DNA of 21,942 bases from a virus. Position 1 is the stretch's first letter; each line of letters begins with the position of its first letter. Position numbers and translations under genes: made by a program. The stretch is taken from positions 1 through 21,942 of IMG/VR virus record IMGVR_UViG_3300020131_000011, one strand, 5' to 3'. The notes under the pieces are model-generated. The model did no database searches and had not been told where the DNA came from. It saw only the letters and a program-made list of their open reading frames with translations. Positions 1,742 to 20,566 of the stretch are shown here, one piece after another.

Positions 1742-2002
1742 ATGTGGAAAGACTTCAAACAGGGCTTTATGAACGCATTGACCCTGAAGGATATCCGATG
1801 GCTTATCTACAACCACATCAGCTATCCCTTGCAAGCCGCTAGGCGAAGACACAGAATGTTGAAGTGTACCCGCAACCACAAAGACGAACCGTATGAACAC
1901 TTCAACGGCTGGGCTTTGGGTACAGGACATTACCCTGTCCGCTGTACGAAGTGCGGAACGCTCAAGTACATCAACAGCAAGGGTGAATGGTACAGGGGTT
2001 AG
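1742..2002 (+). CDS. Small zinc-ribbon-like protein (DUF1660-like)
   Basis: I chose ATG 1742 because AAGGA (1728-1732) lies nine bases upstream. A TTG at 1733 in the same frame touches the ribosome binding site and is unlikely. The 86-residue product has a basic N-terminal half and a C-terminal half with a possible metal site: C-x3-H in CTRNHK followed by CxxCG in RCTKCGTLKY. This resembles the small prophage zinc-ribbon proteins grouped as DUF1660, an assignment made by eye. It is the last plus-strand gene, and its TAG stop (2000-2002) overlaps the stop of the opposing hydrolase gene. No terminator is visible between the two, so transcripts may run into each other. Confidence 0.7.
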   Translation: MWKDFKQGFMNALTLKDIRWLIYNHISYPLQAARRRHRMLKCTRNHKDEPYEHFNGWALGTGHYPVRCTKCGTLKYINSKGEWYRG

Positions 2003-2631
2003 AGATGCCCGGGTATCTTAGCGGTCGGGACGTAAACGGGTTCGAGTTTAACCTGGCTCGGGATAGGGCAGTTCTCCGGGTCCATGATAAAGCGCTTCCA
2101 CTGGCAGATATTGCCGTAATCGGTGTACGAACTGTGAGTGTTCCCATCTGCGTTGATGTTTACGACCTTACGATTCCCGCCGGTATATCCACTATGGCCT
2201 AGCAGCCCGAAGTCATGCCAAGGTAAACGGTCACCCCACTTTAGCGCGACATCGTTCTTCGAATGGATGTTGTATAGCTTATCAAAGCAGTCCGGAATGT
2301 AAACGTCCTGTTCCGCTGCTGCTCCGAAAAAGAATACATGGGAGAACTTGCGTGGGGTAGGTTCCGCGGCCATTTTCCGCATAGCGTATATTGAGGCCAG
2401 GCAGCCGAAGGAGTGCGCGACAAGGATGTCTCCGTGCTTTGCTGTAGCTGCTATCACGTCCGCCCGGCGTTCCTTTGCCGTCTGTAGATATGCGAACAGT
2501 GCCCACATTCTGGGGTAGGCGATATCAATGACTTCAAAATCTTGGGCCAACGTTGCTAGCAGTTTGTCGGTGAAAGAGTTGCTGGACGTTGACCAGTTAT
2601 GTATCCCGTTTACTCCAAGCACTCTTTTCAT
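1999..2631 (-). CDS. Alpha/beta-hydrolase-type esterase/lipase-like protein
   Basis: This 210-residue protein starts at ATG 2631 behind a GGGGG ribosome binding site. It reads as an alpha/beta hydrolase. The N-terminus NGIHNW resembles an oxyanion-loop strand. The nucleophile elbow is VAHSFG with Ser74 (Ala in place of the usual first Gly). Asp127 in IHSKNDVAL and His166 in GNTHSSY are at the right order and spacing for the catalytic acid and base. There is no signal peptide. It lies directly downstream of holin and endolysin, so a late lysis role such as lipid or ester cleavage in the envelope is plausible, as with LysB of mycobacteriophages. The sequence shows no specific LysB signature, and modification of a host metabolite or polysaccharide acetyl groups is equally possible. 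Fold confident, substrate unknown. Confidence 0.8.
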   Translation of the reverse strand: MKRVLGVNGIHNWSTSSNSFTDKLLATLAQDFEVIDIAYPRMWALFAYLQTAKERRADVIAATAKHGDILVAHSFGCLASIYAMRKMAAEPTPRKFSHVFFFGAAAEQDVYIPDCFDKLYNIHSKNDVALKWGDRLPWHDFGLLGHSGYTGGNRKVVNINADGNTHSSYTDYGNICQWKRFIMDPENCPIPSQVKLEPVYVPTAKIPGHL

Positions 2632-2644
2632 ACTGCCCCCTATG

Positions 2645-3190
2645 CTAAGCCGATAGCGCTTTCACGGCTAACGCATGCAGCGCCAGCCTATCCTCATACC
2701 CGTTGAGTCCGCCGTTGATACGCTTTGTGATTGTGCGGAAGTACCCCATATCAGCAAGCTCGTTCAAGCCCGTGTTCCACCAGTACCAGGCTGCTGATAA
2801 GGATGCGTACTGTGGCTCCTCCAGCAGCTCGGGCTTTGCAACGAGGTCAAGCTCGAGGGCGATACCGCAAAGGAGGTAATTTCGTTTCCCTGTAATCTGG
2901 ATAAGGCCCCTGCCCTTGTATAAGCGCCCGTCGTCATCGTCCTCGGGAGTGTTGCCTAGTGAGACAGCTTTGCGACCCGTGTCGTAAGCTTCGCCGCTGG
3001 CCAATTCCCGAACGTACCGAAGCCTTCCCGACTCGTGCCCCACTTGGGCCAGGAAAACTGCTTGACGCTTGGGTGTATTGATTTCGAAACGTTCCATCGC
3101 CCGGTTAATGTGGGCAACCCATTTCACAGCCCGTTCCATTGGGCATTCCATGGCTCGGGAGAGTTGGAGCGCTGTTATATCGTTGTTCAT
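2645..3190 (-). CDS. Endolysin, glycoside hydrolase family 19 (chitinase-like) type
   Basis: The 181-residue protein cuts cell-wall glycan at lysis. It has the hallmarks of GH19-type phage lysins: FLAQVGHESGRLRYVRE (46-62) with the probable catalytic Glu53, the substrate-groove motif YKGRGLIQITGKRNY (91-105), and the later ITKRINGGLNGYEDR (154-168). Length is typical for a single-domain lysin. No signal peptide or SAR anchor is present, so it should depend on a holin. Its start overlaps the stop of the putative holin by four bases (ATGA), the usual holin-lysin coupling. No spanin (Rz/Rz1) pair is found beside it in the window. Confidence 0.9.
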   Translation of the reverse strand: MNNDITALQLSRAMECPMERAVKWVAHINRAMERFEINTPKRQAVFLAQVGHESGRLRYVRELASGEAYDTGRKAVSLGNTPEDDDDGRLYKGRGLIQITGKRNYLLCGIALELDLVAKPELLEEPQYASLSAAWYWWNTGLNELADMGYFRTITKRINGGLNGYEDRLALHALAVKALSA

Positions 3191-3588
3191 AATTTAGTTA
3201 GGAACGCCCTTAGCCACCCGCTGATACCGAATGCCATCAAGCCAACGACCAGGGCAAGTATCCAAAAGATGCCGCGTCGGAAAAGTTCGTTTCTTAAATC
3301 GGAATAGAATTTTGCCCGCTCGGTTTCACTTTGAATCATGATTTCGTGGGCTTTGCGGTGCCCATTGGGGTCACCATTTGGAAAAGCATCACTGAGGATT
3401 CGGTCGATTCGTTCCCGTTCCTCGAGTAGGTGGGTTTCGAACTTTCGCTCGTTGCTGTCTACTCGGGAAAGGACTTCTGTTTGACGGGAGGCTATGATTT
3501 GCAGCAGGGCGACAACTTCTTCGGGGCAGGTCTTTCTTGCATCTGCGACCATTTGTTCAATGTTATCTTGTGTTTCTTTTTCACCCAT
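3187..3588 (-). CDS. Putative holin or lysis-associated membrane protein
   Basis: The 133-residue protein has a long charged, helix-prone N-terminal part with probable coiled coil (about residues 35-65), the segment FPNGDPNGHRKAHEIM, and one C-terminal membrane segment at about 106-127 (IFWILALVVGLMAFGI). This is the layout of many unnamed phage membrane proteins found next to endolysins; XhlA-type proteins have a similar plan but are shorter. Here it lies immediately upstream of the lysin and overlaps it by four bases, so holin is the best guess. A single-span holin would be of the class III kind. A GGGGGG ribosome binding site precedes the start. Membrane topology is confident; pore function is inferred from position alone. 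Confidence 0.7.
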   Translation of the reverse strand: MGEKETQDNIEQMVADARKTCPEEVVALLQIIASRQTEVLSRVDSNERKFETHLLEERERIDRILSDAFPNGDPNGHRKAHEIMIQSETERAKFYSDLRNELFRRGIFWILALVVGLMAFGISGWLRAFLTKL

Positions 3589-3609
3589 GCGCTAGCCCCC
3601 CGACTGTTC

Positions 3610-4263
3610 TTATGTATCAGCTGTCACTCTAACCACGTTGGTCCCGTCTGCTAGAAGGATAGCCCGCTTTGTTTGAGCTACCGCAACCCCCGTTCCGGCA
3701 GCCGTCTTGAATGTGATGGGGTCAGCGCCTGATGAGCTGTTTACAAATACGACCCATTCACCACTGTTGGGCAGTATAACATTTTGAGCCGAAGCCAAAG
3801 CCCCTGTGATGATGATATAGCGGGCCCGGGCTTGCGCTGCATTTAAGGTCACTTGTGCATTAGTTACGGGAACAGATACTTTCGAGGTCACATGCTTTGG
3901 GTCAACCCATGCCCGTTCGTCGGTGTAGCTTGTAACAGTTGAGCTTCCTGCAACGATTGTATAAAGAGGGATGCTACCGGGCGTGAAACCCGTGGTGTTT
4001 GCGGAAACAACGCCCGCTGGCGTAGCTTCAACGTAGTTTGTAAGGCTTGCTGATAGTGCCACGACACCATTGGCAATCGTGGTCAGTACGCCATCAACTA
4101 GCATCCTGCCGCCGTAGTATCCCCAGGTCAGCCCGGTTGTGGTTGATGCCCGGCGGCCGAATATCGTAGCTGGTGACCCCGCGTCAAACAAAGCGTTAGC
4201 GGTCACTTCCTTGCTTGCTTGGCTGGAGCTAATTGTATCTAGGTTCGTGGTGCTGTTTGACAT
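3610..4263 (-). CDS. Tail-fibre-like or minor virion protein
   Basis: The 217-residue protein is Ser/Thr/Val/Ala-rich and beta-prone throughout, with almost no charged helix, as expected of a fibre or distal tail protein. The N-terminal half (about 15-120) describes domain-like repeats of strands and turns. The C-terminal part (NSGEWVVFVNSSSGADPITFKT, split here by eye from ALLADGTNVVRV) resembles the ending of many phage tail or fibre proteins. It starts at 4263, two bases after the large tip protein stops, so it is probably an accessory of that complex. No enzymatic motif, signal peptide or chaperone domain is seen. A receptor-binding role is inferred from position. Confidence 0.7.
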   Translation of the reverse strand: MSNSTTNLDTISSSQASKEVTANALFDAGSPATIFGRRASTTTGLTWGYYGGRMLVDGVLTTIANGVVALSASLTNYVEATPAGVVSANTTGFTPGSIPLYTIVAGSSTVTSYTDERAWVDPKHVTSKVSVPVTNAQVTLNAAQARARYIIITGALASAQNVILPNSGEWVVFVNSSSGADPITFKTAAGTGVAVAQTKRAILLADGTNVVRVTADT

Positions 4264-4265
4264 GA

Positions 4266-6803
4266 TTAAGTCCTTCTGATGATTGTTCCGGAAGCAGGGT
4301 ATCCCCTGCCGTTGATTGCTGACATCTGGTACACATTAAAATTGACCACCTCGGGAACTGGATTTGATGGGTCTTGTATCTGCCAGACGTTAGTCCCGTT
4401 ACTGGATACTCCAGGCCCAGCATATAAGACTCCATCATGCGCATAAAGGGCACGGACGAAAGCTGCTCCGTTCCATCCGCCACTAACCCCATCCCCTCCG
4501 ACCTTAGTCCAGCTTGTACCGTTCCAAGACCAGACTTCTCCTTCGTCGGCGCTTTCACCAAGGCCTACATATAGCACCCCACTTAGGACGGTCATGGTGT
4601 ACGCATACTCATGAGCACTTGCCCAGCTTCCGTTTAAGGAGTCGCCCCCGATTTTAGTCCAGGCTGTGCCGTTCCATCTCCATACCTCGGCGTCCCCTGC
4701 GCTATCACCAAGACCGGCATAGATATATGTCCCATCCTGAGCAAGCGAACGGATGCGCTCGTACCCAGCACCCCAGCTAGAATTTACACTGTCCCCGCCA
4801 ATCTTGGTCCAGCTAATAGAACCAACAGGGGTTGACCAGACTTCGGCGTCGTTGGCGCTGTTACCTATGCCTACATATAATGTGGTGCCCATAATCACCA
4901 TCGTCTGGACAACTTCGTAATCAGTATTCCAGCTCGAGTTCAGTCCATCCCCGCCAATCTTTTCCCAGACCGTTCCGTTCCATCTCCAAACTTCCGCACC
5001 GCCCGCTGAAGCTCCAAGACCTGCGTAAAGGTACGTCCCGTCTTCTATCATGGACCTGACCATATCGTAAGTTGCTGGCCAGCCTGAATTGAGCCCGTCG
5101 CCCCCAACTTGCGTCCAGACTATTCCGCTCCCGCTATACCTCCAGACGTCTGCATATCCGGTGAGAGTGTAATATGTGCCCACATACAGCGAGCCGGCGT
5201 AAACAGTCGGAGCAAACACTTCCAGATAGCTTGTCGAGTTTATGAAAATGGAGGTCAGTGTGGTGCCGTCCCATAGGTACACCTGCCCGCTTCCTCCGGA
5301 TATGCCCCCTGTTGTTATGACCAGGTATCCATTCCAGTACGTCAGCCCTATAACATAATCAGGGAAGCCGTCTATATCAAAATCCGCGTTGTCAAGTATC
5401 TGTAGCCATGAAGGGGCACCGAAGTCGGAAAGCTGGAGAGCCCTGGTATAATCAAATGTGGAACTTGTGGACTCATATGTATTTACTAGCTCGCCCAACT
5501 CGTCGACGATGTCTATTTCATATGCTTCCGTTTGCTCGCTCATTGGGACGTCGACATAGTCGCGCCAATCTGCATACAGTCTGTTCCGGCGAACCCAGTT
5601 TATCGTGACGTCGCCTGTTGCGTTCCGCTCGACTGCAAAGGCATGGACAGGAGCGTAGCATTCCTGGCCTACGTTCTGGAACGTGAAGGACGACTCCTCA
5701 GTGTCCTGTATGATGTCGTTTAACGTGACGACCTTGTAAAGGCGTTCTTGAGGGATGTCGGTGCTGGGTAGCGCTAGGCGGATAAGAGCGAAGTCCAACA
5801 GGACAACCCTATCCCCTTCCGCATGCGTACTGATTGCCCATTCTGTTCCCCTGCGGCCACGAAGCAGCCCGCTGATTTCGTATATACCTTCATCAAGCTG
5901 TTCCGCGTTCTTGAACTGCAATACCTCGTCACCCACTAACAGAGCGTTAGCTCCGTTCAATACAGCGAGCTCTGTCGTGCTGCTTAATTCTCCGCCGTAT
6001 GGGAAGCGAACAATAAGGGTATTGGTCTCGTCGAATATGTCGGCACGTCCTACCCCAAGGACATCACGGGTGAACCCGAATATGGAAGCAGTGAACACCC
6101 CGTCAAGCTGTTGGTAGGTTAGCCCGTTATCAGAGGACTTGAAAACAACAGCCCCTTCCCATCCATCATTCCGGCCCGCGGCAGCCACATAGATTCCAAT
6201 GCCTTCGTCCGTATCCCGAAGCAGTGCAATATCAAGCAGCTCGTACCGACTCTTAGCCAGCGGGTACAGGACTTGGTCGTCGAACTCGCCCCCATCCCCT
6301 TCCGAATTGGAGATGTACTGGGAAGCTTCGTCCGGAACGCATTGCAATCCAATAACCCCGTTCGAGTTGTCATCAGTTGCCAGAACATAATACTGGTGAA
6401 CTGCGACATCTGTTTCCACAAGTATGACGTCCGTCGGCTCGATGAACTTGTATTTATTGTTCAGCTTTAGCTGGGCCATGTTGCGCGAGACCCAGGCGTT
6501 ATAAAGTACGCTGTCAGCAATCTGCTTCGCGTGGTTAGCTGTCAACACGACTTGGACATCGATGCCTATCTTGTTAATGCTGCCGCCCGTCATGCGCTGG
6601 CTATGCTGGACCCCAGTCTGGTAATCGTGGTCCTGGCTGATATATCCAATCTGCACTTCCTTCGGCATCTCAGCTTCCTGAGTGCGTTCGATAGCGATTA
6701 AGTCTTCGACGTTACCGATTGACTCGCTTGCTGCCAGGTCGTCTTGATGAATAGTGACAGCGGGTGCCCCGCCACGTTTCACGAATTTGATTTTAGCGGC
6801 CAT
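4266..6803 (-). CDS. Tail-tip protein, C-terminal half (GTA-gp15/J-like) with inserted beta-propeller
   Basis: This 845-residue ORF looks like the second half of a GTA-gp15-type host-specificity protein. Residues 1-80 (KIKFVKRGGAPAVTI, then EMPKEVQIGYISQDHDYQTG) continue a domain begun in the ORF upstream. About 85-460 include the tip domains, with ISGLLRGRRGTEWA (310-323) and an FN3-like stretch ending FDYTRALQLSDFG. In relatives this runs almost directly into the strand seen here at 818-835 (VVNFNVYQMSAINGRGYPA). Instead about 350 residues intervene: a beta-propeller-like repeat of some seven units, five nearly regular at about 50 residues each (EVWRWNGT, W-TKIGGD, LYxGxG). The start ATG 6801-6803 follows the upstream stop TAA directly and in the same frame, with GGAAAG seven bases before that TAA-ATG junction. 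Scaffold family confident; propeller role (receptor or glycan contact) inferred. Confidence 0.85.
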   Translation of the reverse strand: MAAKIKFVKRGGAPAVTIHQDDLAASESIGNVEDLIAIERTQEAEMPKEVQIGYISQDHDYQTGVQHSQRMTGGSINKIGIDVQVVLTANHAKQIADSVLYNAWVSRNMAQLKLNNKYKFIEPTDVILVETDVAVHQYYVLATDDNSNGVIGLQCVPDEASQYISNSEGDGGEFDDQVLYPLAKSRYELLDIALLRDTDEGIGIYVAAAGRNDGWEGAVVFKSSDNGLTYQQLDGVFTASIFGFTRDVLGVGRADIFDETNTLIVRFPYGGELSSTTELAVLNGANALLVGDEVLQFKNAEQLDEGIYEISGLLRGRRGTEWAISTHAEGDRVVLLDFALIRLALPSTDIPQERLYKVVTLNDIIQDTEESSFTFQNVGQECYAPVHAFAVERNATGDVTINWVRRNRLYADWRDYVDVPMSEQTEAYEIDIVDELGELVNTYESTSSTFDYTRALQLSDFGAPSWLQILDNADFDIDGFPDYVIGLTYWNGYLVITTGGISGGSGQVYLWDGTTLTSIFINSTSYLEVFAPTVYAGSLYVGTYYTLTGYADVWRYSGSGIVWTQVGGDGLNSGWPATYDMVRSMIEDGTYLYAGLGASAGGAEVWRWNGTVWEKIGGDGLNSSWNTDYEVVQTMVIMGTTLYVGIGNSANDAEVWSTPVGSISWTKIGGDSVNSSWGAGYERIRSLAQDGTYIYAGLGDSAGDAEVWRWNGTAWTKIGGDSLNGSWASAHEYAYTMTVLSGVLYVGLGESADEGEVWSWNGTSWTKVGGDGVSGGWNGAAFVRALYAHDGVLYAGPGVSSNGTNVWQIQDPSNPVPEVVNFNVYQMSAINGRGYPASGTIIRRT
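4380..5144 (-). repeat. Tandem beta-propeller blade repeats within the tip protein
   Basis: Five in-frame units of about 150 bases encode blades of the form EVWxWNGTxWTKIGGDxxNxSW followed by a variable strand and YxGLGxSAxxA (residues about 554-808). Two less regular units at residues 482-553 precede them. The copies differ by many bases, so they are established protein repeats, not a recent DNA expansion. The pattern of Trp, GGD and LYVG strands suggests a seven-bladed propeller of the tachylectin or kelch kind. Confidence 0.75.
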
Positions 6804-8732
6804 TTAATCACTTTCCACTGCGTCATAAAAGTAGGCCAGCAACAAGGGCTCAAGAGCTGCTCGGGCTGGGGCTTGCTTTGTTATCACGTAACCTAGAACT
6901 TCTTCCGTCATATCTGCCACGTCTATCTCAGGGGCTTCCAATCCTGCCCGTTCGCTTATGTCCGTTACTATGTCCATCAACAAAGCGGAAGTGGGTTGGA
7001 TGCGGGGAAGCAATGGGACACGAACCAATTCCCCGTTATAGCTCAGCCCTCCCAGCAGCCAGGCCCATTCGATATTGCCGTTATCGTACAACGTTAGAGC
7101 AACACTCGTATCATCCGGAGCTGGGGTCGTATATGACTCCTCTAAGCTCCAGTCTGTCACGTCGTACTTCCGGAATGTGTTGCTTGAACCCAGCCACAGG
7201 GAATCACTAAGGCTGGAATAAATCATATAGAAGACATTAGCTGGGGCTGTTAGGACTAGGGTGAGCGTTCCTGCTATCGGGTCGAGTTCATAAACATTTG
7301 GGCTCAAGTCTCGCGCTACATATACCACATCCCTGCGAGTGTCCCATGCCAGCCGCATATTGCCGGAACCAGCTGGCATGGATATATGGTGTACCCTGTT
7401 GTTAGTCTCGTAACTAAATATCTCGATGATGTACTGGCCGCCTAAGTTCTGTCCAGCTAGCACGAGGCGCCATGTGGACACATCTCCGCCCAATACCATT
7501 TCAGTTCCTTGGTAACGGAAGCCGGGCGTCACTTCGATATAATCAAACGAATCTAATTGCGTCTGCATTTCGGAGGTAATGAACTCAAGGAAGTTTCCTT
7601 CCATGCTTGTGATACGAGCATCCCCGAATGCAGCTCCGCAGAACGCCCATGCTGTCATTGTGACAGGGTTGTATATAGTCGCCCCTGAAGCAGCCAAGCC
7701 TCCTGACCAACCCAGGTTGCTGTTACCGAGATACGCTAGGGAATTAGGGTCGTACTTTTCAACAATCATATCATCGGGCCAGTTAACACCAGCATTCCTG
7801 CCCGCTACCCATATCTCATCATAATAATCAACTTCTCCAGTCATCTCGTCGACTTGGTAGCCGTAGACATGGGTCACCGTCCTTGGGTCGGTATCATCGG
7901 ACCGGAGAGCTACCCTATCAATTTCCTGCCCCGTATAAACATCACGGGCGACCAGGAAACCCGGGCCGTTCACGCTTGTGGCATGGGCTGTATAGATGCG
8001 ACCGTTGATGGGTCGTTTATACATTGCATACCCATCAGGGAATGTCTCTCTTGGAGGGTAGCTTTCGGGCCCGCGTACAACCTCGAACGTGAAGTTCGGG
8101 ATGCGGTTGCCGTATGGTGCCACATCCAGTCGCTCGAATACTATGTAGGCTCGACCGCGATAGGCTGGGGTATTGTTTGCCCCTAGATATGACTGGAGGA
8201 GCGGGTCGGGCTGCTGATTAAAGTCGCCCTTATAAACTCGGATACCAGCGCTCACTCCTGTGAAGCCCGTGTTGTTGGGTCGACGGTCATATACTAGCTT
8301 CCCGTCCGCCCATATACGAGCAACACCATCTATCTCGCCTTCGCAGAGCAGGATGGCGCAGTTGGCAAAATACGAATATGTGATATGGCTACTGCTGGAG
8401 CTGCCGCCACCTCCCTTGCCACCTCCGCTGCTTCTAATCCTTTCCACATTACGGACTTCAATCAGCGGGGGCGCCCAGATTACGTTCCCAGCTAAGCGGA
8501 TGGAACCGTACGTGATAGGGATGAACGAGCCGTATGCAGAGCCTTGAACGGACTTGTCAGCCAGGCGCGGACCCTGCTGGTCGGGAAGAGATATCTTCTG
8601 CTGCCCGATACCCAGCATGGACGAAGCAATCGAACCTATGGTCCATCCGATACCAGCCGCGGACATGCCCATAAACGTCCCACCGATTGCCCCACCAATA
8701 CCAGCCCCTATCAGAGGAAGTGCTAGCTGCAT
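6804..8732 (-). CDS. Tail-tip protein, N-terminal half (GTA-gp15/J-like) with propeller-like insertion
   Basis: The 642-residue ORF opens like GTA-gp15 and related tail-tip proteins: a Gly/Ala-rich hydrophobic start (GAGIGGAIGGTFMG), ITYGSIRLAGNVIWAPP (73-89), a Gly/Ser linker (102-115), ALCEG-like ILLCEGEIDGVARIWADGK (127-145) and YRGRAYIVFERLDVAPYGNR (191-210). The scaffold then stops at FTFEVVRGP (215-222) and resumes at LLMDIVTDISERAGLEA (584-600), ending LEPLLLAYFYDAVESD. Between them lie about 355 residues of beta-rich sequence (for example DVVYVARDLSPNVYELDP and DSLWLGSSNTFRKYDV) that read like quinoprotein or YVTN-type propeller blades, in the place where GTA-gp15 carries a TIM barrel. 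The sequence at the stop codon falls in the middle of a domain that continues in the next ORF. Confidence 0.85.
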   Translation of the reverse strand: MQLALPLIGAGIGGAIGGTFMGMSAAGIGWTIGSIASSMLGIGQQKISLPDQQGPRLADKSVQGSAYGSFIPITYGSIRLAGNVIWAPPLIEVRNVERIRSSGGGKGGGGSSSSSHITYSYFANCAILLCEGEIDGVARIWADGKLVYDRRPNNTGFTGVSAGIRVYKGDFNQQPDPLLQSYLGANNTPAYRGRAYIVFERLDVAPYGNRIPNFTFEVVRGPESYPPRETFPDGYAMYKRPINGRIYTAHATSVNGPGFLVARDVYTGQEIDRVALRSDDTDPRTVTHVYGYQVDEMTGEVDYYDEIWVAGRNAGVNWPDDMIVEKYDPNSLAYLGNSNLGWSGGLAASGATIYNPVTMTAWAFCGAAFGDARITSMEGNFLEFITSEMQTQLDSFDYIEVTPGFRYQGTEMVLGGDVSTWRLVLAGQNLGGQYIIEIFSYETNNRVHHISMPAGSGNMRLAWDTRRDVVYVARDLSPNVYELDPIAGTLTLVLTAPANVFYMIYSSLSDSLWLGSSNTFRKYDVTDWSLEESYTTPAPDDTSVALTLYDNGNIEWAWLLGGLSYNGELVRVPLLPRIQPTSALLMDIVTDISERAGLEAPEIDVADMTEEVLGYVITKQAPARAALEPLLLAYFYDAVESD

Positions 8733-9145
8733 AATTCAGTTCCTTTGAAACGATAAGCTTCACGAATGCGCGAACGCCACGTATGGTCTAGAACGTGCTC
8801 GACTACTTTCCCAACGCCCGAATAAGAATGGATTATCCCAACGTCCGTTTTGATTGCTAAGTGCTGGGGCTCTTTATAGAACACCATCCAAAGGACATCA
8901 CCTGGCTGGGCATCGTTAACTTTGATTGGAATCATTTCGCGGTTTAAGACTTCCCGCATCATCTTCGGGTCCGGGTCCCTGCCGTAATTCTTTGCATCGA
9001 AATTGCTGAGCCCCAGTTCGTGAGCCACCCCAACTATCAGACCGACACAATCGACCCCGATACCCTTGAGCCGGCCTTGATGACGAAATTTAGTGCCTAA
9101 GTACTCACGAGCTTTGCTCACCACTTCTAGATTAGTTCGTACCAT
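8723..9145 (-). CDS. NlpC/P60 family tail-associated cell-wall peptidase
   Basis: The 140-residue protein has the NlpC/P60 layout: nucleophile Cys33 in GVDCVGLIVG, the QPGDVL turn (80-85), and the catalytic His95 in QHLAIKT followed by VGIIHSY. The family cleaves peptide cross-bridges of peptidoglycan. In GTA-type tails the equivalent gene (gp14 position) sits between the hub and the tip protein, exactly as here, and is thought to help the tail cross the cell wall during DNA entry. The start lies 14 bases inside the upstream hub gene and its stop lies inside the start of the tip gene, so all three are coupled. Length is normal for the single-domain tail form. Confidence 0.9.
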   Translation of the reverse strand: MVRTNLEVVSKAREYLGTKFRHQGRLKGIGVDCVGLIVGVAHELGLSNFDAKNYGRDPDPKMMREVLNREMIPIKVNDAQPGDVLWMVFYKEPQHLAIKTDVGIIHSYSGVGKVVEHVLDHTWRSRIREAYRFKGTELCS

Positions 9146-9974
9146 ATGACATCACCCTATCTATGCCAGGAACATGGGGCTCGCCCTGAAAGTTGATTGC
9201 ATTAGCGTAACCGACACAAGCTGCGAACGTCTTTGAGCAGCCGCGGACGATAGTATAAGTATCACCTACTTCCAAGTTGTACGGGAACGGGATGACCAGT
9301 TCAATTATGCCCCCTGCTTGGGTCGAAGCTTTAACTTCCATGCTTAGCCCTGCGTTATTCCCGCTTGTCATTGTTACCAAGCCATATTGAAACAGGTTGT
9401 CCGCTTCCGTGCGGGAAGTGTCCGCGAAATTGCGGTTGTCCGTTACGCTTGTGATAGCCCCTGCGAACGTATATGGGGCAAGGTTAACTGTGCAACGATT
9501 GTCACCAAACTGGGCCCGGCATGTAGGCGTGGTCACTTCCCCGATGACATTTGTGTAAGCTTGCATCATGCCACGAAGTTCGGCTGCCACTGCTCCGCGG
9601 TTTAGCTTTATGTTACCCAGAGTTCCTTTGCGCTGATGAAGGCTGCCCTGCGACAAGTCCTCATAATTGACCACGAAGATTTCGATGCCCGCATAGTCCC
9701 AAAGCCCGGCAATGATATCGCCTTCTGTTATGAGGTCGGAGTCTACTAGAGCAATGACTTCCAAGTTATCGACGGACAGGTTGTTCGACGTGGTCACATT
9801 GGAGGGAGTGTATCCGATAGCGGACTCGTATGTTACGCCATCAATTTCCAAGTTGTTAACGTGGTCCGTGAATCCTAGAACAGTCCCGTTATTAAGAGTG
9901 ATTTTCCAGCAAGTGCAAAGCGTTGTGACTTCCTGCTCCAGGTGAGCTTTAAGTGCGGGTGAAATTGTTTTCAT
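9132..9974 (-). CDS. Tail hub protein, DUF2163 / BR0599 type (GTA gp13-like)
   Basis: I chose ATG 9974: it lies one base past the upstream stop and has AGGG six bases before it. A longer frame to 9995 would run into the preceding gene. The 280-residue protein matches the DUF2163 plan: N-terminal MKTISPALKAHLEQEVTTLCTCW, a central YEDLSQGSLHQRKGTLGNIK, and the C-terminal signature TFAACVGYANAINFQGEPHVPG. Four cysteines (C152 and C161 in CRAQFGDNRC, C246 and C253 in CSKTFAAC) are spaced as in tail-tip proteins that hold an iron-sulfur cluster, such as lambda gpL. That is inference from the pattern. The protein forms the hub between Dit-like ring and tip. Confidence 0.88.
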   Translation of the reverse strand: MKTISPALKAHLEQEVTTLCTCWKITLNNGTVLGFTDHVNNLEIDGVTYESAIGYTPSNVTTSNNLSVDNLEVIALVDSDLITEGDIIAGLWDYAGIEIFVVNYEDLSQGSLHQRKGTLGNIKLNRGAVAAELRGMMQAYTNVIGEVTTPTCRAQFGDNRCTVNLAPYTFAGAITSVTDNRNFADTSRTEADNLFQYGLVTMTSGNNAGLSMEVKASTQAGGIIELVIPFPYNLEVGDTYTIVRGCSKTFAACVGYANAINFQGEPHVPGIDRVMSYGTN

Positions 9975-9975
9975 G

Positions 9976-11079
9976 TTATACCCTGATTTCCACAATAGGA
10001 ATCTGTCCCCAGCCTTGAACGCCGGGTGCGATTACGTCGACGCGAATCTGGTCTGTATCGAAACGGCACGGCACATCGAACTCCCCTGTCCAAGTTAATG
10101 TGTCCCCGTCCGGATAAAGTTCGGCGCTCCCACCTGTTGTCCTAGCAGAGAACGCAGTTGCATCGACTCCGCTTAAATCAAAATAATCCGCGTTGGCATT
10201 AACGACTGCATACGCCAGGTCGTTAATCTGGGTCATGCCGCCAACACCCATGATTCGAACTTTCTGCCCGTTTGTAAAAGTATGCCCAGTTAAGTAGACC
10301 CGAGCTGGGTTCGTTTGCGTGATGCCATACTTGGTTATCGTCCCCCCGCTTGTGTATGCTCCGAACGCACTCGCATCAACATCCAGAGTCACATGGGTTC
10401 CGTCGGGAACGTTTAGGACGTCATAATAATTTCCGTTCAGCTGAATCATGCCGCCCACCGATTCGGTCTTGAGCTTATCCCCAGCGACAAAACCGTGGGC
10501 AACCGAAGTCTCAATGATTGGGTTCCCATCCGAATCCAGTGTAATCCCAATTATAGTCCGCGCGATGTTAGCGTTGATTACTTCCGCTTCGTCTGGAATA
10601 AACGTTACCAGGCCGGAAGTATAATCGATTGTCACATTGCCAGGCGCTGCCCCTTCGGTGACTGGCGCCCCGTTACGATAAACCGTTACAGTCCCCTGAA
10701 CAGGTTTGTTAATAGTACGCTCCTCGGAAAGCACTCCAGTCTCGTACTTCTTAATCATCTGGTATGACGTAAGCAGACCGTCTGCAACCCCATCGCCCAG
10801 AAAGCCTTCCCCATCGCTTACTTGATAATCGCTCCAATCCTTAAACCGGAATCCGTAAGCCCTGCCCTTTACTGACCGGAAGAAGTGTATCAACTCGTAC
10901 AGCTTCTCTTTGGTGCGGGCAGCATGCGAAACGTCGTACGAGGCGCGAGCGACCGCCCAAGTAATGTTCCGTTTTTCATGCCCCGAGTTTACAATGACAA
11001 TGTTGGTCTTGTAGCCAGGCCCCCCTGTGGCACCATAGCTCACGTTTGCAGGGAATCGCGGTGTTTCTAAAAATGTCAT
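9976..11079 (-). CDS. Distal tail (Dit-like) DUF2460 protein with tandem FCCH-like insertion
   Basis: The ends match DUF2460 (TIGR02217; GTA gp12-like): FLETPRFPANVSYGATGGPGY (3-23) and ELIHFFRSVKGRAYGFRFKDWSDY (62-85) at the front, and LTWTGEFDVPCRFDTDQI followed by IPIVEIRV at the end. Ordinary members are near 210 residues, while this one has 367. The extra sequence, about 168-322, sits after GLVTFIPDEAEV, where relatives run straight to the WSGEFDVPVRFDTD strand. It holds two similar units, VAHGFVAGDKLKTESVGGM and TGHTFTNGQKVRIMGVGGM, each followed by a YxVxNxxxxxxxLxxVDAxAFxAxTxGG block. This resembles the FCCH-like domain seen in assorted phage proteins. The first base of the start shares the last base of the tape-measure stop (TAATG). 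Confidence 0.88.
   Translation of the reverse strand: MTFLETPRFPANVSYGATGGPGYKTNIVIVNSGHEKRNITWAVARASYDVSHAARTKEKLYELIHFFRSVKGRAYGFRFKDWSDYQVSDGEGFLGDGVADGLLTSYQMIKKYETGVLSEERTINKPVQGTVTVYRNGAPVTEGAAPGNVTIDYTSGLVTFIPDEAEVINANIARTIIGITLDSDGNPIIETSVAHGFVAGDKLKTESVGGMIQLNGNYYDVLNVPDGTHVTLDVDASAFGAYTSGGTITKYGITQTNPARVYLTGHTFTNGQKVRIMGVGGMTQINDLAYAVVNANADYFDLSGVDATAFSARTTGGSAELYPDGDTLTWTGEFDVPCRFDTDQIRVDVIAPGVQGWGQIPIVEIRV
10114..10560 (-). repeat. Two tandem FCCH-like units inserted in the Dit-like protein
   Basis: Residues about 174-249 and 252-322 of the DUF2460 protein are two diverged copies of one domain. Shared landmarks are H-x-F-x-x-G-x-K, GVGGM-x-Q-x-N, a Tyr-Val strand, the VDA-x-AF element and T-x-GG at the end. 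The copies align at protein level but differ widely in DNA. Such units resemble the ubiquitin-E1 FCCH-type fold reported in phage structural proteins; assignment is by eye. Confidence 0.6.
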
Positions 11080-13091
11080 TATGTGTTCCTCGCCAATGCT
11101 CTGTTAACCGATTGTCCTACTTCAGCGGCTATCTGTGCTTGAGTGCGGCTATCCATAGTCCCAGCGATTGAGAAGTTATTCACAACGCTCACCCCACCAC
11201 CTACCCCAAGCTTGCCGTCTGCCCCTCGCTTCAGTGGAATGATAGCTTCGGGACCTGCTTCGCCCATAACGCCCGTCCTTCCTCCCCCGAACGTGAATGG
11301 GGTTGCCCCATCTACTATCCCACCGGAAGCGAAAGGAATCGGGGCAACACCTGAGGAAGTAAACGCATTACCTTTCGCGTTAAAGAAGCCACTGAAGAAG
11401 TCCATTATTCCGCCCGCTCCACCAGCGTCATTAAACGCCCCCTTTGCAAACTCGAGCAGTTGTGATGCCAGCAGTTCAGACACCATGCGGTCAATCATAT
11501 TTTTAAATGAGTCGCCGAAGTCACCCATCTTGCCCTGCATTGCATCGAAGAAGAATGTGCCCATTGCGTCCTGCATGTTGGCAGCCGCTTCTTCCCAGAA
11601 CTCGGTCACTTTGTCCGCGGTCTCCTCGTGGGAACGTCCCAGTCTTGCGTTGACTGCTTCAGTGTACTGTTCGAGGTTGATTGTTCCTTTCAGATACGCG
11701 TCAGCTAACAGCTTCATATCCTCACGGGCTTTCTCGAGCCCTGCTGTTGGAGTATCTTCCATTAACTCATGCAAGCGCTTTAGAGGCTTCTCTGCTTCTT
11801 CAGCCATTGCCTTAAAGCGTTCCTGCTTGTCGGTATATTCTTCCAGTATCAGCAGAGCTTCGCGAGCCCGTTCAAGCTGCTCTGGGCTAGCGCCAGCAAT
11901 TTGCAAATCAAAGAGCTTGGCTTCTACATCCGTCATTTCCAGCTTAGCCACTTCTGTTTGGATGTCGCGGATGCTTTTCTCCACATTCTCAAACATCTTC
12001 TTAGCAGCTTTGCCAGTCTCGCCTTCCGCTTTGATAATCGGAGCAGCAATCTTCTTGGCTATGTCCCCGCTCTGCGATTCAATCCTTGCTGCCGGCTCAT
12101 CCCATAATGCGCCTACTGATTTAAACGTCTGGGTGATATCGTCAACAAAGTCGACGGTTCGCTGGGCTGTGATATCGAACGCTGCTTGGAAGTTGCCGGA
12201 GAATAACTGGACGAGGGATGCTGCAAATCCCCCAATCTGATTCCCTACTACTTTGAACACTCCCCCGACCGCTAGAGCAGCGGAAGCGATAAGCTTGATA
12301 CCCGTAACCGCAACCGAAGCAGCTTCAGCCAAAGCAGATGAGCCTTGCGCTGTGTTAAACATTTCGTCGGTCAGGTTGACCAGGGAGGGAAGGAGCTGTT
12401 TGGAAATCTCGTTGAAGATGCCGCGAGATACTGCACCCAGGCGAGTCATGTTGTCGTTAAACACTTCAGCCGCTTTAGCTGCATCCGTGCTAAGAGTAAT
12501 CCCAAGGCGGTCGGCTTCTTCTTGCAAGCCCGCGATACCTTCTTTGCCTTGATTCAGGAACGGGATAAGTTCCGCTCCAGCCTTACCAAACAAGGCCACA
12601 GCCAGAGCAGTCTTTCCAGCACTGTCTTCCATTGCTGCAAAACGCTCAGCAATGTCCAACATGACTTGGTCGCCGGAACGCAACTCGCCGTTCGTAGTCT
12701 TAAAGCTGATACCCAGAGCAGTGAAAGCTTTAAGCGCTTCGCCTGTTCCTTGGGAAGCGTCGCTCATGCCCTTGGACAAGCGCACCAGCGAAGCATTCAA
12801 CGACTCTTGTGCAACCCCAGCCAGGTCAGCTGCATACCCCATGGAGCTCAGCGCTTCGACGCTTACCCCAACTTTCTGAGAAGCCTTTAGCATCTCGTCC
12901 TGCAAGTCGATGGACTGCTTGACGCCAGTAGCTACAGCAGCACCCATCGCCAGGAACGCTCCGCCTACCACCTTCCCGATGTCCGCTGCTTGCTTCTTGA
13001 AGTTGGCGAGAGCCTTCTCCGCCCGTTTGGTATCGGTTTCGAAGGAACCCGTTTTCATCAGCAGGTCGATTATAATACTTCCAGCAGCCAT
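11079..13091 (-). CDS. Tape measure protein
   Basis: The 670-residue protein spans the tail lumen and sets tail length. It opens with DLLMKTGSFETDTKRAEKAL and a hydrophobic GGAFLAMGAAVATGV (43-57), typical of tape measures. It contains a membrane-like stretch at about 262-297, a long helical, charged coiled-coil region (about 350-520) and a Gly-rich C-terminus with GEAGPEAIIPLKRGADGKLGVGG-type sequence and VNNFSIAGTMDSRTQAQIAAEVG, the common ending of proteobacterial phage tape measures. At the usual 0.15 nm per residue the tail would be about 100 nm. AGGAGG precedes the start, which lies two bases after the GT chaperone stop. No lysozyme or peptidase insertion is visible. Confidence 0.93.
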   Translation of the reverse strand: MAAGSIIIDLLMKTGSFETDTKRAEKALANFKKQAADIGKVVGGAFLAMGAAVATGVKQSIDLQDEMLKASQKVGVSVEALSSMGYAADLAGVAQESLNASLVRLSKGMSDASQGTGEALKAFTALGISFKTTNGELRSGDQVMLDIAERFAAMEDSAGKTALAVALFGKAGAELIPFLNQGKEGIAGLQEEADRLGITLSTDAAKAAEVFNDNMTRLGAVSRGIFNEISKQLLPSLVNLTDEMFNTAQGSSALAEAASVAVTGIKLIASAALAVGGVFKVVGNQIGGFAASLVQLFSGNFQAAFDITAQRTVDFVDDITQTFKSVGALWDEPAARIESQSGDIAKKIAAPIIKAEGETGKAAKKMFENVEKSIRDIQTEVAKLEMTDVEAKLFDLQIAGASPEQLERAREALLILEEYTDKQERFKAMAEEAEKPLKRLHELMEDTPTAGLEKAREDMKLLADAYLKGTINLEQYTEAVNARLGRSHEETADKVTEFWEEAAANMQDAMGTFFFDAMQGKMGDFGDSFKNMIDRMVSELLASQLLEFAKGAFNDAGGAGGIMDFFSGFFNAKGNAFTSSGVAPIPFASGGIVDGATPFTFGGGRTGVMGEAGPEAIIPLKRGADGKLGVGGGVSVVNNFSIAGTMDSRTQAQIAAEVGQSVNRALARNT

Positions 13092-14301: not shown

Positions 14302-14886
14302 TCACTCTGCAAACGCTGGTATCCAGTGCGGCACCCCACCAATAAATATCCTCAGCCATTTTGCTGGGGAGATGTTAGCTGGAGCGTTTGTGGCCGCGAA
14401 TGTCGCAGTACCTGTTCCAGCGGGTACATCCAATCCGATGATATTCAGTTCGGGTGTAGTGAACGAAATAGTTACATCTTGATTTCCGTCTAGCGTTATC
14501 CCGATATTTTCAGCTCCTATATTATGCTGATATAAGGAGCCGCTTCCATCGCCGCTGATGGTCACGTCATCAGTAGCCCAAAACGATGAACCATTTCCGC
14601 CAACGTACTGTTGTTTCTGGTAACTGGATGATAAATCATTAGCATTAACCAATTCAGTTATCAAGCTGCCGTCGAAACTCCCAACAAAAGGACGAGCATT
14701 CATCTCTCTATATGTTATGCCCTCCTCTGTGTAGAATTTATAGTTGCTTAATCTTCCTCCCCAGATGGATTCGGAACGTATGCTAACCTCCGAGTCGGTT
14801 GCGTTCTGTGTAGCTACAGCCCCGAAGCCCCCGCCTCCCCCGCCTCCACCACCTCCGCCTGTTCCACCTATAATTAAACGAGCCAT
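14302..14886 (-). CDS. Virion protein with poly-glycine N-terminus (short form)
   Basis: The 194-residue protein begins MARLIIGGT followed by eleven glycines, exactly as the 458-residue protein encoded just upstream does; the two then share no obvious sequence. The body is Ser/Thr/Asn/Gly-rich and beta-prone, with phrases such as SFDGSLITELVNANDLSS and GDGSGSLYQHNIGAENIGITL, and ends AKWLRIFIGGVPHWIPAF. No signal peptide, enzyme motif or membrane span is seen. It lies between the tail-completion genes and the tube gene, so a virion decoration or tail accessory role is likely. GGAG stands ten bases before the start, similar to the spacing for its neighbour. Function inferred from position only. 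Confidence 0.75.
   Translation of the reverse strand: MARLIIGGTGGGGGGGGGGGFGAVATQNATDSEVSIRSESIWGGRLSNYKFYTEEGITYREMNARPFVGSFDGSLITELVNANDLSSSYQKQQYVGGNGSSFWATDDVTISGDGSGSLYQHNIGAENIGITLDGNQDVTISFTTPELNIIGLDVPAGTGTATFAATNAPANISPAKWLRIFIGGVPHWIPAFAE
14827..14886 (-). repeat. Poly-glycine N-terminal module, copy 2
   Basis: The first 20 codons encode MARLIIGGT plus eleven Gly. Against the copy at 16228-16287 all 20 residues are the same, yet 13 of the 20 codons differ, every one at the third base. The shared codons include TTA Leu, ATA Ile and ACA Thr. Confidence 0.85.
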
Positions 14887-14910: not shown

Positions 14911-16287
14911 TTATCTGTCCGAACTGTAATCGGTGTAGAGCCGCATCCAGTCGATGTCTATTGTTTGACCAATGCTTGTGCCACCAACTATGAAGGCTCC
15001 TAGAGTGAATCCCGCCGTCGGGAGTGATGCGAAATTATAATCAGCGAACAGATTACCGTTTATATACAACCTCGTCCTCCCAGTGGAAGGGGTTATTCTC
15101 ATCAAATATTTATTATACGACCCAAATGTTATAGGGAAAGTACCTGAGATACTTACAGAACTCTCTACCCCAGCAACCCAAGAACGAAGTCCGAACCTAT
15201 TATTATCGGCAGGGTAGCTGTAGCTCACCGCAACGCCGTTCTGTGGTTGGGCATCCGCTTGGTCAATGAACCCGATATAGATTCCCCCTTGATTGGATGC
15301 GTTATATACCTGGCCTATACTCATTGACCATTCTAGATTCACTTCGTCTGAGGAAGCTGTGTCTAGGAAGAACACTTCAGTGCTAACGGAAGCATCCTGT
15401 GAGAGAGTAAACCCGCACCGTTCGCTCGACAGCAACCCAACGTCAGGAACTAGCCGGATAATGCCTGGTCGTTTAGCAGTACCAGGCAACAGCGTGACAG
15501 CACCCCCATTCGCTGTGAACGTGCTCAAGTTGGGGATTGTTGTCCCGCCAAAACTTACAAAGTCTTGAATAAGACCAAACCGCTTGGCTGGATTCTCTAG
15601 CTCAGTTTCGTTAGGACCAATGCCCCATGCCCCATCCCCTTTAAGATATAGGGCAGCTGAAGGAGTGCCCGTGCCAAGGGATTCCACATTTATCTGTACG
15701 GGGACTCCAAGTTCGTCTTTAATCGAAAGCTTGTTGTTGTTCTCAGCGGTGATATGCGCCTGGTTTAACCCTCCGCTACTAAACAGAGCAATGGGTCTAG
15801 TAAACTGAAAAAATTCGTTAGTTAGCTCAATCTTCGCACCGGATGAACCTATCTGGAGAGTCATCTTTGGGTCAGGCTGTGAAGCTCCCCCGGTTATCTG
15901 GAAATTATTAGCACTCCAAATCGAAGCGACATTGGTTGGGTCAATTGAGCCGTCCATGTAGAATTCATATAACCAATTCTCTTCAGAATCGGTTATAAAC
16001 CAATCGTATCCCGCGTCGAATTCAGTAGGTGGTGGAAGGACAGTCTTATGAGTTATAAATTCGACGCCCCAGTTGTCCGGTTCGCCAGTGCCCCAAATGA
16101 CATTCGATGCACCATCAACAGCGAACTTTCGTACCCCAGCTACAGACCCTTCAAAAAGTCCTGGCAGGGAATTCTCTACATCCGGAGGGATAATCTTGAA
16201 GGTATAGTCGCCAAGCGTTATCTCGCTGCCGCCACCACCGCCGCCTCCGCCTCCGCCACCTGTACCTCCTATGATTAACCGGGCCAT
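14911..16287 (-). CDS. Virion protein with poly-glycine N-terminus and lectin-like C-terminus (long form)
   Basis: The 458-residue protein starts MARLIIGGT plus eleven glycines, then continues with beta-rich sequence. Middle parts (IGSSGAKIELTNEFFQF and AHITAENNNKLSIKDELG) look like fibre or spike repeats. The last 130 residues (about 315-455: LEWSMSIGQVYNASNQGGIYIGFID, here split, then YLMRITPSTGRTRLYINGN and IDIDWMRLYTD) have the strand order and motifs of concanavalin or laminin-G-like lectin domains, which often bind sugars. No enzyme motif is apparent. The gene lies between a 111-aa unknown and its short partner. A receptor- or surface-glycan-binding virion protein is the best inference; whether it sits on head or tail cannot be told. 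Confidence 0.75.
   Translation of the reverse strand: MARLIIGGTGGGGGGGGGGGSEITLGDYTFKIIPPDVENSLPGLFEGSVAGVRKFAVDGASNVIWGTGEPDNWGVEFITHKTVLPPPTEFDAGYDWFITDSEENWLYEFYMDGSIDPTNVASIWSANNFQITGGASQPDPKMTLQIGSSGAKIELTNEFFQFTRPIALFSSGGLNQAHITAENNNKLSIKDELGVPVQINVESLGTGTPSAALYLKGDGAWGIGPNETELENPAKRFGLIQDFVSFGGTTIPNLSTFTANGGAVTLLPGTAKRPGIIRLVPDVGLLSSERCGFTLSQDASVSTEVFFLDTASSDEVNLEWSMSIGQVYNASNQGGIYIGFIDQADAQPQNGVAVSYSYPADNNRFGLRSWVAGVESSVSISGTFPITFGSYNKYLMRITPSTGRTRLYINGNLFADYNFASLPTAGFTLGAFIVGGTSIGQTIDIDWMRLYTDYSSDR
16228..16287 (-). repeat. Poly-glycine N-terminal module, copy 1
   Basis: Codons 1-20 of the 458-residue protein encode the same peptide as codons 1-20 of the 194-residue protein (14827-14886). 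The boundary of similarity falls straight after the glycine run, where the proteins continue with SEITLG here and FGAVAT there. Confidence 0.85.
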
Positions 16288-17740: not shown

Positions 17741-18223
17741 TTAGGTCATTTTATTAAACGCGACAACGCTGTAACTCCAGCACAAATCGCGCTCACTATT
17801 GATGACATTTACAAAGCCCAAGTCCTCGACTAACTTACGCATATCGTCAGGATGCCACTGGTGCAAGTGTTTACGATTGTTCTGCGGCAGCCAGTACTCC
17901 ATATCCGGATGCGGAAGATAAAGAAACAGCACCCCACCGTCAACGAGTCTACTTTTCCAATGCAGCAGGGCTTTCACCGGGTCGGTTAGATGCTCCAAAC
18001 AATGACTAGAGAAGATGTAATCAAATTTATCGTCCGGCAAAGCTTCCGCGGTTGCCCCATGCCGTTTCTCTATGGGGATAGCCCAACCCAAAGGCCAATC
18101 CCCGCATCCTATGTCAAGCCCGCGCCCCTTGCAGAACTGTTCAGCAAATGGAGTGGCGAAGCGGGCTGCATTGCCTTCCTTCAAGTACTGTGGATACAGT
18201 TTGCCCTTGTACTCGTATATCAT
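17741..18223 (-). CDS. SAM-dependent methyltransferase (class I)
   Basis: The 160-residue protein has the class I fold signals: motif I GLDIGCGDWPLG (about 35-46, the SAM-binding loop), the acidic strand end FDYIFSSHCLEHLTDP (67-82) and the LVDGGVLFLYLPHPD segment (93-107). It resembles Methyltransf_11-type enzymes, which methylate sugars, lipids or small molecules. The missing usual C-terminal domain makes it a compact form. It overlaps the GT29-like gene by four bases and closes a four-gene sugar cassette, so methylation of a glycan, on the virion or the host surface, is the likely role. Substrate cannot be read from sequence. Confidence 0.85.
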   Translation of the reverse strand: MIYEYKGKLYPQYLKEGNAARFATPFAEQFCKGRGLDIGCGDWPLGWAIPIEKRHGATAEALPDDKFDYIFSSHCLEHLTDPVKALLHWKSRLVDGGVLFLYLPHPDMEYWLPQNNRKHLHQWHPDDMRKLVEDLGFVNVINSERDLCWSYSVVAFNKMT

Positions 18224-18897
18224 TTTCTTCCCCTCTCCAAGCTCTCCAGTAATGTGTCGTCCATGATAAGCGGGTACTTACTTTTGTTTTCGATTATCCA
18301 GTCGCGCTCCCTGTTCGGCTCGTGACGGATTGGGTCTGCTTGATTTGTAGGTACCCACTTTTCATCCCCATTGTGAATCCTTGATTCAAAGAAGTCGAAC
18401 CCAGTTAAGTAGACTGCGGCAGGGTTGAACGCAAGGATGTCCAGCAAAGCAGCAAACCCAGTAGTCGGAATATGGTTACCCAACAGCGCGAACTTTTTCA
18501 TGAATTCTTCGCGGGTTGGGATGTAGACTGGGCAAAACCACCAGCGCCTCCGTGCGATGTATATGTATTGGAAATGCACCCCGTTCATCCTGCCGTGGCG
18601 CTTATGCCAATCCGTTACCGGGATGGAATCGTCTGGGCACTTGGCCATGCAAAGCGTCACACCATCTTTTTGTAACTGCTCGGAAGTTTTGGAAATGTTC
18701 ACCCCGAAGTAGCTGTAGAAGATATCCGTCCGTTGCCCGCTACCCTGCGCGAGCTTGTAATTATTCACACGAACGACAACGTGATGCGAATCAATATACC
18801 CGGGCTCATTAAGGAAAGCGCTTGGGCCGCCACCCACTAGCGCCACCCTTTGCCCCTCGATGATTGACCGGACATGCTCCCTACTGCAAGAATTCAT
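18220..18897 (-). CDS. Sialyltransferase-like glycosyltransferase (GT29-type motifs)
   Basis: The 225-residue protein has motif order like GT29 and its bacterial or viral relatives: nucleotide-binding VALVGGGPSAFLN (18-30), VVVRVNNYK (40-48), TDIFYSYFG (57-65), TTGFAALLDIL (145-155), YLTGFDFFES (163-172) and a late IRHEPNRERDWI (190-201) with the probable catalytic-base His192. True family members move sialic acid from CMP-sialic acid, but distant members may use other sugars, so donor and acceptor are unknown. It overlaps its upstream neighbour by 17 bases and the methyltransferase by four. No signal peptide or membrane span, so it should work in the host cytoplasm. Confidence 0.75.
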   Translation of the reverse strand: MNSCSREHVRSIIEGQRVALVGGGPSAFLNEPGYIDSHHVVVRVNNYKLAQGSGQRTDIFYSYFGVNISKTSEQLQKDGVTLCMAKCPDDSIPVTDWHKRHGRMNGVHFQYIYIARRRWWFCPVYIPTREEFMKKFALLGNHIPTTGFAALLDILAFNPAAVYLTGFDFFESRIHNGDEKWVPTNQADPIRHEPNRERDWIIENKSKYPLIMDDTLLESLERGRK

Positions 18898-19657
18898 TTG
18901 CCACCCACCTTATCTCTTCTTCTGTTGCGGAGTCTATCACATACTTGGAATTCTTGTGGTGATGAATCTTCTCTGGTGTTATTTGCTGGATATATGGGAC
19001 GGGCGATTTAAGTCCGCGTTTGCTCCAGACTGTCAGCGACGGTTTTCCGAAGCACTCTGCTAGAGGGTTCATAAACGAGCAATGCCCTATAAAGCCTTTG
19101 GCGACCTTAGCCATGTCCAGCAGGTCTTTGACGCTTGTCTTTCCAGCTAAGTCCAGAGTCACCCCGTCGAACTTGTGAAGGGGCTTGCCATTGCCCATTT
19201 GAATGATGTTGTAATTCTTTGATATCTCGTCTATCGCAAGTTGCATCTTGCTGAAGTTGGGGAGCAGCTCCATCCCAAAGCCGTCGTTCCTATTCATGGG
19301 AGGACGTACCATTTGCAAGACAACAAACGGCTGGAACCTTTCAAGTATCTGGAGCAATTCGTAATTCTGCGCCCGCCAGCTTATCATCAGCGGGATGTCC
19401 TGCGGCAGCCCTGCGCTGATACAGCAGTCTTGAAATTGAGTTGTTCCTTTAATAGGCTTGCGCTGGGCATAATGGGCAAGGATGTCCACATTATTCCGGC
19501 TGAACTTCTCGGTCGTGCAATCTAGCTGGCTGAATACGTCGGGATAATCAGTTAGAGCTACGACCTTCTTCCCCCGAGTTAATAAATAATCGACTATGGC
19601 TTGCAGGTAAAGCGCATCCCCTAGCCCCCGCCCACTTCTGATTCTAAGACCTGACAT
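18881..19657 (-). CDS. Heptosyltransferase-like (GT9-type) glycosyltransferase
   Basis: I chose ATG 19657 because GGGGGA lies just upstream; a start at 19678 would only add residues without a better signal. The 258-residue protein begins GLRIRSGRGLGDALYLQAIV, the GxGD-type opening of GT9 (ADP-heptose LPS heptosyltransferases), followed by KKVVALTDYPDVF. Its C-terminal half has MAKVAKGFIGHCSFMNPLAE and FGKPSLTVWS, the usual sugar-donor region of this GT-B fold. It is shorter than cellular GT9 enzymes (about 320-350), so one domain may be reduced. Overlap with the neighbouring genes is 37 and 17 bases. Transfer of a sugar to lipopolysaccharide or a virion glycan is possible; donor unknown. Confidence 0.7.
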   Translation of the reverse strand: MSGLRIRSGRGLGDALYLQAIVDYLLTRGKKVVALTDYPDVFSQLDCTTEKFSRNNVDILAHYAQRKPIKGTTQFQDCCISAGLPQDIPLMISWRAQNYELLQILERFQPFVVLQMVRPPMNRNDGFGMELLPNFSKMQLAIDEISKNYNIIQMGNGKPLHKFDGVTLDLAGKTSVKDLLDMAKVAKGFIGHCSFMNPLAECFGKPSLTVWSKRGLKSPVPYIQQITPEKIHHHKNSKYVIDSATEEEIRWVANEFLQ

Positions 19658-20238: not shown

Positions 20239-20566
20239 AAGCCACACCCTCGGACGCCATAAGAGTCAGGTAATGCAACCCGCTATTTGGGTCGGGCAGT
20301 ACAGCTTCTATCTTATACACTTTGCCGCGGAATACTGCGCGAATTCCGGGTTTAAACTTGTCGTTATAACGGACAGTCATGCGGGTATTTAATTGGCTTT
20401 GAACAGCTTGCGATGAAAGATACTCGCGCCCGGATACAGGGGCAACTTCCGTCGAGATGGGATACCCAAACAAATCAACCCAAGTCTCTACCCGGTCCCC
20501 CTCCGAATCTATCTGGGTGAAAAGTTCTTGGAACTCTACCTTGTGACGTAAGCGCCCGGCTCTCAT
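20213..20566 (-). CDS. Head-tail joining protein (Phage_H_T_join / SPP1 gp16-like)
   Basis: The 117-residue protein has the family start MRAGRLRHKVEFQELFTQID, the conserved VETWVDLFGYPISTEVAPVSGREY (split by eye), the beta strand RMTVRYNDKFKPGIRAVFRGKVYKIEAV and the ending YLTLMASEG. Members form the stopper ring below the connector. It overlaps the gp6-like gene by four bases (ATGA) and precedes, after an overlap, the sugar cassette. Length typical. Confidence 0.92.
   Translation of the reverse strand: MRAGRLRHKVEFQELFTQIDSEGDRVETWVDLFGYPISTEVAPVSGREYLSSQAVQSQLNTRMTVRYNDKFKPGIRAVFRGKVYKIEAVLPDPNSGLHYLTLMASEGVAYVGDAVED

Follow-up and report, generated by a model that had tools for sequence, protein, structure and literature searches.

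The window analyzed here, a 21,942-nt stretch of an IMG/VR virus record (IMGVR_UViG_3300020131_000011, positions 1–21,942), carries a siphophage tail module on the minus strand in which a tail-tip gene is interrupted by a stop codon directly followed by a start codon, raising the question of how one domain comes to be encoded by two open reading frames. The first of these, ORF A, ends ...LLLAYFYDAVESD followed by a TAA stop codon (nt. 6804–6806), and the second, ORF B, opens with the abutting ATG (nt. 6801–6803; MAAKIKFVKRGGAPAV...), keeps the frame of ORF A, and ends at nt. 4266 (Table 1), in agreement with a preliminary description of the gene as split at an in-frame TAA-ATG. Were the stop codon passed, the hypothetical read-through product would comprise 642 + 1 + 845 = 1,488 residues. 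We consider it very likely that this arrangement is an established gene fission within a megatron-type hub domain, in which coupled re-initiation would yield two chains that unite through strand complementation.

Table 1. Features of the divided tail-tip gene in the window.
Feature	Position (nt.)	Strand	Description and basis
ORF A, 642 a.a.	6804–8732	−	N-terminal half of megatron-like baseplate protein (ORF call, 6tba match, PHROG 4271); iris/adhesin-like N-terminus, β-propeller insert, and first 71 residues of central hub domain
ORF B, 845 a.a.	4266–6803	−	Remaining central hub domain, C-terminal (fibre-binding) region, and second repeat insert
Junction TAA-ATG	6801–6806	−	Stop of A directly abuts start of B, in frame; from sequence
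Shine-Dalgarno-like GGAAAG	6811–6816	−	7 nt before ATG; overlaps conserved Val-Glu codons
Last β-strand of A, YDAVES	6810–6827	−	Arm 1 of split hairpin; AlphaFold2 strand 68–73
First β-strand of B, KIKFVK	6777–6794	−	Arm 2 of split hairpin; AlphaFold2 strand 79–84
Central hub domain, A part (A residues 572–642)	6807–7019	−	Structural match to RcGTA 745–984
Central hub domain, B part (B residues 1–171)	6291–6803	−	Structural match to RcGTA 745–984
Rcc01698_C domain, PF23666 (B residues 241–334)	5802–6083	−	Pfam, E = 7.7e-28
N-terminal iris/adhesin-like region (A residues 4–224)	8061–8723	−	PHROG 4271 and 6tba match
Peripheral domain of A (residues 225–576)	7005–8060	−	Modelled β-propeller; AlphaFold2 and structural match
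Repeat insert of B (residues 465–822)	4338–5411	−	At least 5 GGDxxNxSW-type repeats ~50 a.a. apart

Family and domain content of the two ORFs

PHROG 4271 (tail protein, 1,309 positions) spans residues 10–224 of A and 3–464 of B, and the solved RcGTA megatron (6tba) is matched at residues 5–207 by A (E = 4.9e-38) and at residues 836–1275 by B. The central PF13550 (Phage-tail_3) domain is present but shared between the two chains, with profile positions 2–25 matching the last 24 residues of A (Pfam, E = 0.0075; a short piece, below the family cut-off) and positions 26–151 matching residues 3–132 of B (Pfam, E = 2.6e-25); the split thus falls inside one domain, as had been proposed. Judging from these matches and that to PF23666, A and B together are an RcGTA gp15/"megatron" baseplate protein of the PF13550 and PF23666 family, which bears out the GTA-gp15/J-like identity first suggested for them.

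Of the solved relatives, the RcGTA megatron and the Roseophage R4C megatron (8gtc) match best. With the former (Rcc01698/gp15; 6tba, 6teh; PMC7296036), the window proteins have in common an N-terminal iris/adhesin region, a central hub, and an Rcc01698_C region, and the gene order is also similar, with small tail genes lying between the tape measure and megatron genes. However, the RcGTA megatron is one chain of 1,304 a.a., whereas two chains are encoded here, cut at the position of D821/G822, and the window differs further in a modelled β-propeller as the peripheral domain and an extra repeat insert in B. The R4C megatron (PMC10276861), also one chain (1,447 a.a.), matches the whole modelled region with its residues 878–1420 (Z 22.2) and carries mannanase-like and carbohydrate-binding peripheral domains. 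An uninterrupted polypeptide, usual but not defining for the family, is absent from the window and the eight further contigs described below; a TIM-barrel/mannanase-like peripheral domain, which is variable in the family and not defining either, is absent as well.

In the place of the latter domain, known from RcGTA and R4C (for R4C, PMC10276861), residues 225–576 of A were modelled as a YncE/BamB-like β-propeller, with Z about 20 to Sqt1, YncE, BamB, and others (pLDDT 67 for the whole of A). The insert in B (~358 a.a.) has its GGDxxNxSW-type repeats at B residues 567, 617, 669, 719, and 769 and is absent from the nearest relative, L010; it is perhaps a second propeller, a candidate receptor-facing domain.

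Recurrence of the break among relatives

Relatives were gathered from IMG/VR, GTDB genomes, and phage records, and the junction was placed using a profile of the junction-spanning region. The same split, which the preliminary description had suggested looking for in related phages, was found in eight further IMG/VR contigs from eight data sets (L010, L093, L094, L095, L099, L100, L101, and L113), all broken at the residue at which the window is broken, which argues against chance. With nine contigs sharing the break residue, the split is an evolved one, which excludes both faulty sequencing and a defective gene. The manner in which the two genes meet varies, with a 1-nt overlap (TAATG or TGATG) in seven contigs, a 4-nt overlap (ATGA) in L010, and TAA-ATG in the window only, and in nine of nine split contigs B starts with M[ASL][GA], after which comes the ancestral strand. 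A total of 123 domain matches (at least 78 once near-copies were removed) are continuous at the junction, and both solved homologues are continuous at the split site.

Two junction-based pattern scans of IMG/VR recovered the known split contigs and no new ones. A junction-spanning query aligned whole in all but 1 of 60 phage isolate records among the matches listed, and no split isolate was found among these, the split contigs being metagenomic fragments. A DNA-level search of phages gave no match, profile alignment A3 retrieved no relative, and profile alignment A1, built from 8 diverse sequences, had too much divergence to be of use in scanning collections. Among 369 genomes from the class of a Betaproteobacteria MAG, 27 carried the family, and none of the 29 matches started at profile positions 25–26 in a short frame, a few late-starting matches not having been individually inspected.

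Some relatives are divided elsewhere. Caulobacter phage BL57 (L162), the exception among the 60 isolate records, appeared split in tblastn and was rejected, with breaks at profile positions 95/96 and 258/259; its megatron gene is annotated as several CDSs, the breaks lack start codons, its relatives are continuous, and the pattern resembles sequencing frameshifts. Contig L118 was likewise set aside, as its apparent between-domain break (ORFs at nt. 7824–9320 and 9449–12091) lies away from the split site and may be a sequencing frameshift. In the Xanthomonas phage Pfeifenkraut (L006, nt. 1770–5907), the megatron regions are similarly divided among CDSs that overlap by 1 or 4 nt, a third CDS intervening between those of the N-terminal and central regions; however, the cut there falls between domains and the central domain is uncut at the hairpin turn. 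Split proteins are already known, but a literature search, conducted largely without subscription papers, found no earlier report of splitting or fission in a tail-tip/baseplate hub protein, nor of a conserved split inside the megatron hub domain.

Reading frames and structure at the junction

The preliminary description allowed for occasional read-through to a 1,488-a.a. product. Some full-length protein made by read-through or recoding of the TAA might then do the work, and in the window, whose A and B share a frame, this would add few residues, all within a β-turn. The window is alone in this respect, so rare read-through would be possible there only: in each of the eight other split contigs, A and B occupy different frames, and in six of these the B frame is closed 1–6 codons upstream of the ATG (it is open for 33 codons in L093 and 15 codons in L095). 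TAA is, moreover, generally the least leaky stop codon. A frameshift fusion of A and B was also considered and rejected, as the last 60 nt of A contain no usable slippery heptamer; the only slippery-looking run, found in L094 (TTTTTTG), precedes the point at which the B frame closes, one codon before the B ATG, so that fusion would still be blocked. A functional read-through product is accordingly very improbable, and the frames leave read-through no general role in the split contigs.

The structure at the break was modelled with AlphaFold2 on a single chain combining the last 74 residues of A with residues 1–464 of B, in which Tyr took the place of the stop; the alignment contained 52 relatives (pLDDT 87.5). 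Residues 4–246 of this joined model correspond to the RcGTA central domain (residues 745–984; Z 22.0, rmsd 3.5 Å over 232 residues), a hub fold common to T4 gp27, Mu gp44, and VgrG. The last strand of A and the first of B form a hairpin in the model, and the stop and start codons make up its turn, equivalent to RcGTA D821/G822. When A was modelled alone (30 sequences, pLDDT 67.5), the last strand was unformed and the last residues fell to pLDDT 51, a drop to be read in the knowledge that chain ends lose confidence anyway and that the alignment differed from that of the joined model; as modelled, this fits strand complementation. To the gp27-like hub domain, the C-terminus of A would contribute the two opening helices and the first strand of the hairpin, and B the partner strand and all that remains. 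Since each carries one arm of the hairpin, A and B, as two stable polypeptides, could re-form the hub domain by strand complementation, presumably within a trimeric ring below the tail tube.

The large insert in each half of the window gene (the propeller at A 225–576 and the repeats at B 465–822) might instead suggest that A and B now work separately, as independent proteins that no longer form one domain. We find this about as improbable as read-through, given that the cut interrupts a hairpin of the hub domain and both parts of this domain are conserved, that the window and L010 share 61% identity in the last 75 a.a. of A and 52% in B, that stop and start abut or overlap throughout the split contigs, and that A alone is modelled without its last strand.

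Proposed re-initiation, selection, and history of the split

Gene fission followed by coupled translation of the halves is consistent with the spacing of stop and start, which is 0 nt in the window and −1 or −4 nt in the other split contigs, within the range of about −8 to +10 nt applied to termination-reinitiation pairs. Spacings of −4 and −1 nt are usual for such pairs, among which subunits of heteromeric complexes are overrepresented (PMC10666635), and in translationally coupled overlapping gene pairs (PMC10666635, PMC6728339) stop and start likewise lie within −4 to 0 nt and the products are often subunits of one complex. Unlike these, A and B, which would likewise be coupled, arose from one gene cut within one domain. 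Close spacing is in itself not peculiar to A and B, since the operon has other junctions of similar tightness, such as the TAATG that follows the tape measure gene.

The motif GTGGAR stands just upstream of the start in nine of nine split contigs, compared to GGAR in 10 of the 33 fused relatives that share the VE motif (p = 2e-4, a statistic that ignores relatedness); its presence in all nine indicates that the conserved Val-Glu codons can double as a Shine-Dalgarno sequence. In the window, this GGAAAG had been placed seven bases before the TAA-ATG, a distance that is correct for the ATG, whereas the TAA is only 4 nt away. Ribosomes that have just completed A would start B at its own ATG by termination-reinitiation, using the TAA-ATG and the Shine-Dalgarno-like GGAAAG. 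Because B would be translated by ribosomes finishing A, the two should stay near a 1:1 ratio, and we infer that both chains occur in the virion and assemble in that ratio. Fission with re-initiation and association of the halves, one of the possibilities originally raised, is thereby well supported by the split at the same residue in nine contigs, the stop/start spacing, the GTGGAR motif, and the modelled hairpin.

Between L099 and L100, dN/dS is 0.062 in A and 0.040 in B; both halves have therefore been maintained after the split, and purifying selection acts on both. A recent nonsense mutation, as was further suggested, or else a sequencing or assembly error, in a continuous gene has in its favor that most relatives are continuous across the site, but can be given almost no credence and is refuted as a general explanation by the eight other contigs, since nine contigs break at one residue with proper start codons (overlapping the stop in eight), the window has four codons (TAA ATG GCC GCT) where continuous relatives have a single sense codon, located between ESD and KIKF, the likely error case, BL57, breaks elsewhere and without starts, and dN/dS is low in A and B alike.

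Trees built on the N-terminal region and the B region, with the junction excluded, placed split sequences in three groups: L094, L095, L099, and L113 (100/100); the window and L010 (100/99); and L093, whose nearest sisters, L009, L012, and L090, are fused (100/100). A single clade of all split sequences was rejected (AU p = 6.7e-10), so at least two changes of state have occurred at the hairpin turn. Relative to its fused sisters, L093 differs at the junction by an 8-nt indel and by substitutions at the turn; its B region is 71–73% identical to theirs, and the contigs come from related metagenome data sets. The history would be either one of repeated cuts at the same turn or one of an ancestral cut healed at least once. 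We tentatively raise, as a possible though not a favored course, a reversible fission in which one ancestral hub-hairpin split, predisposed by GTGGAR serving as a Shine-Dalgarno sequence, was naturally re-fused in the L009/L012/L090 lineage; reversibility would in that case be a natural property of the split tail hub.

As the closure of the tail channel, which it opens on infection, the megatron/J protein also anchors host-recognition parts, and a conserved cut in its ring-forming domain indicates a fold that can be built from two chains. The defined β-turn offers a natural split site for assembly studies, and close fused and split relatives provide a clean case for what fission buys, be it co-translational assembly, stoichiometry, or easier exchange of receptor-facing halves. 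Annotation pipelines will list the halves as separate tail proteins.

Two other regions of the window, both on the minus strand, drew our attention. Adjacent genes at nt. 14302–14886 and 14911–16287 have a common start, MARLIIGGTGGGGGGGGGGG (poly-glycine), before diverging, and show no Pfam match. Within the head-tail module, nt. 17741–20247 hold four genes, one of which encodes a methyltransferase (PF13489, E = 1.7e-12), while the other three show no Pfam match above cut-off apart from one weak MptE-like match; these four genes are possibly a surface-sugar modification cassette.
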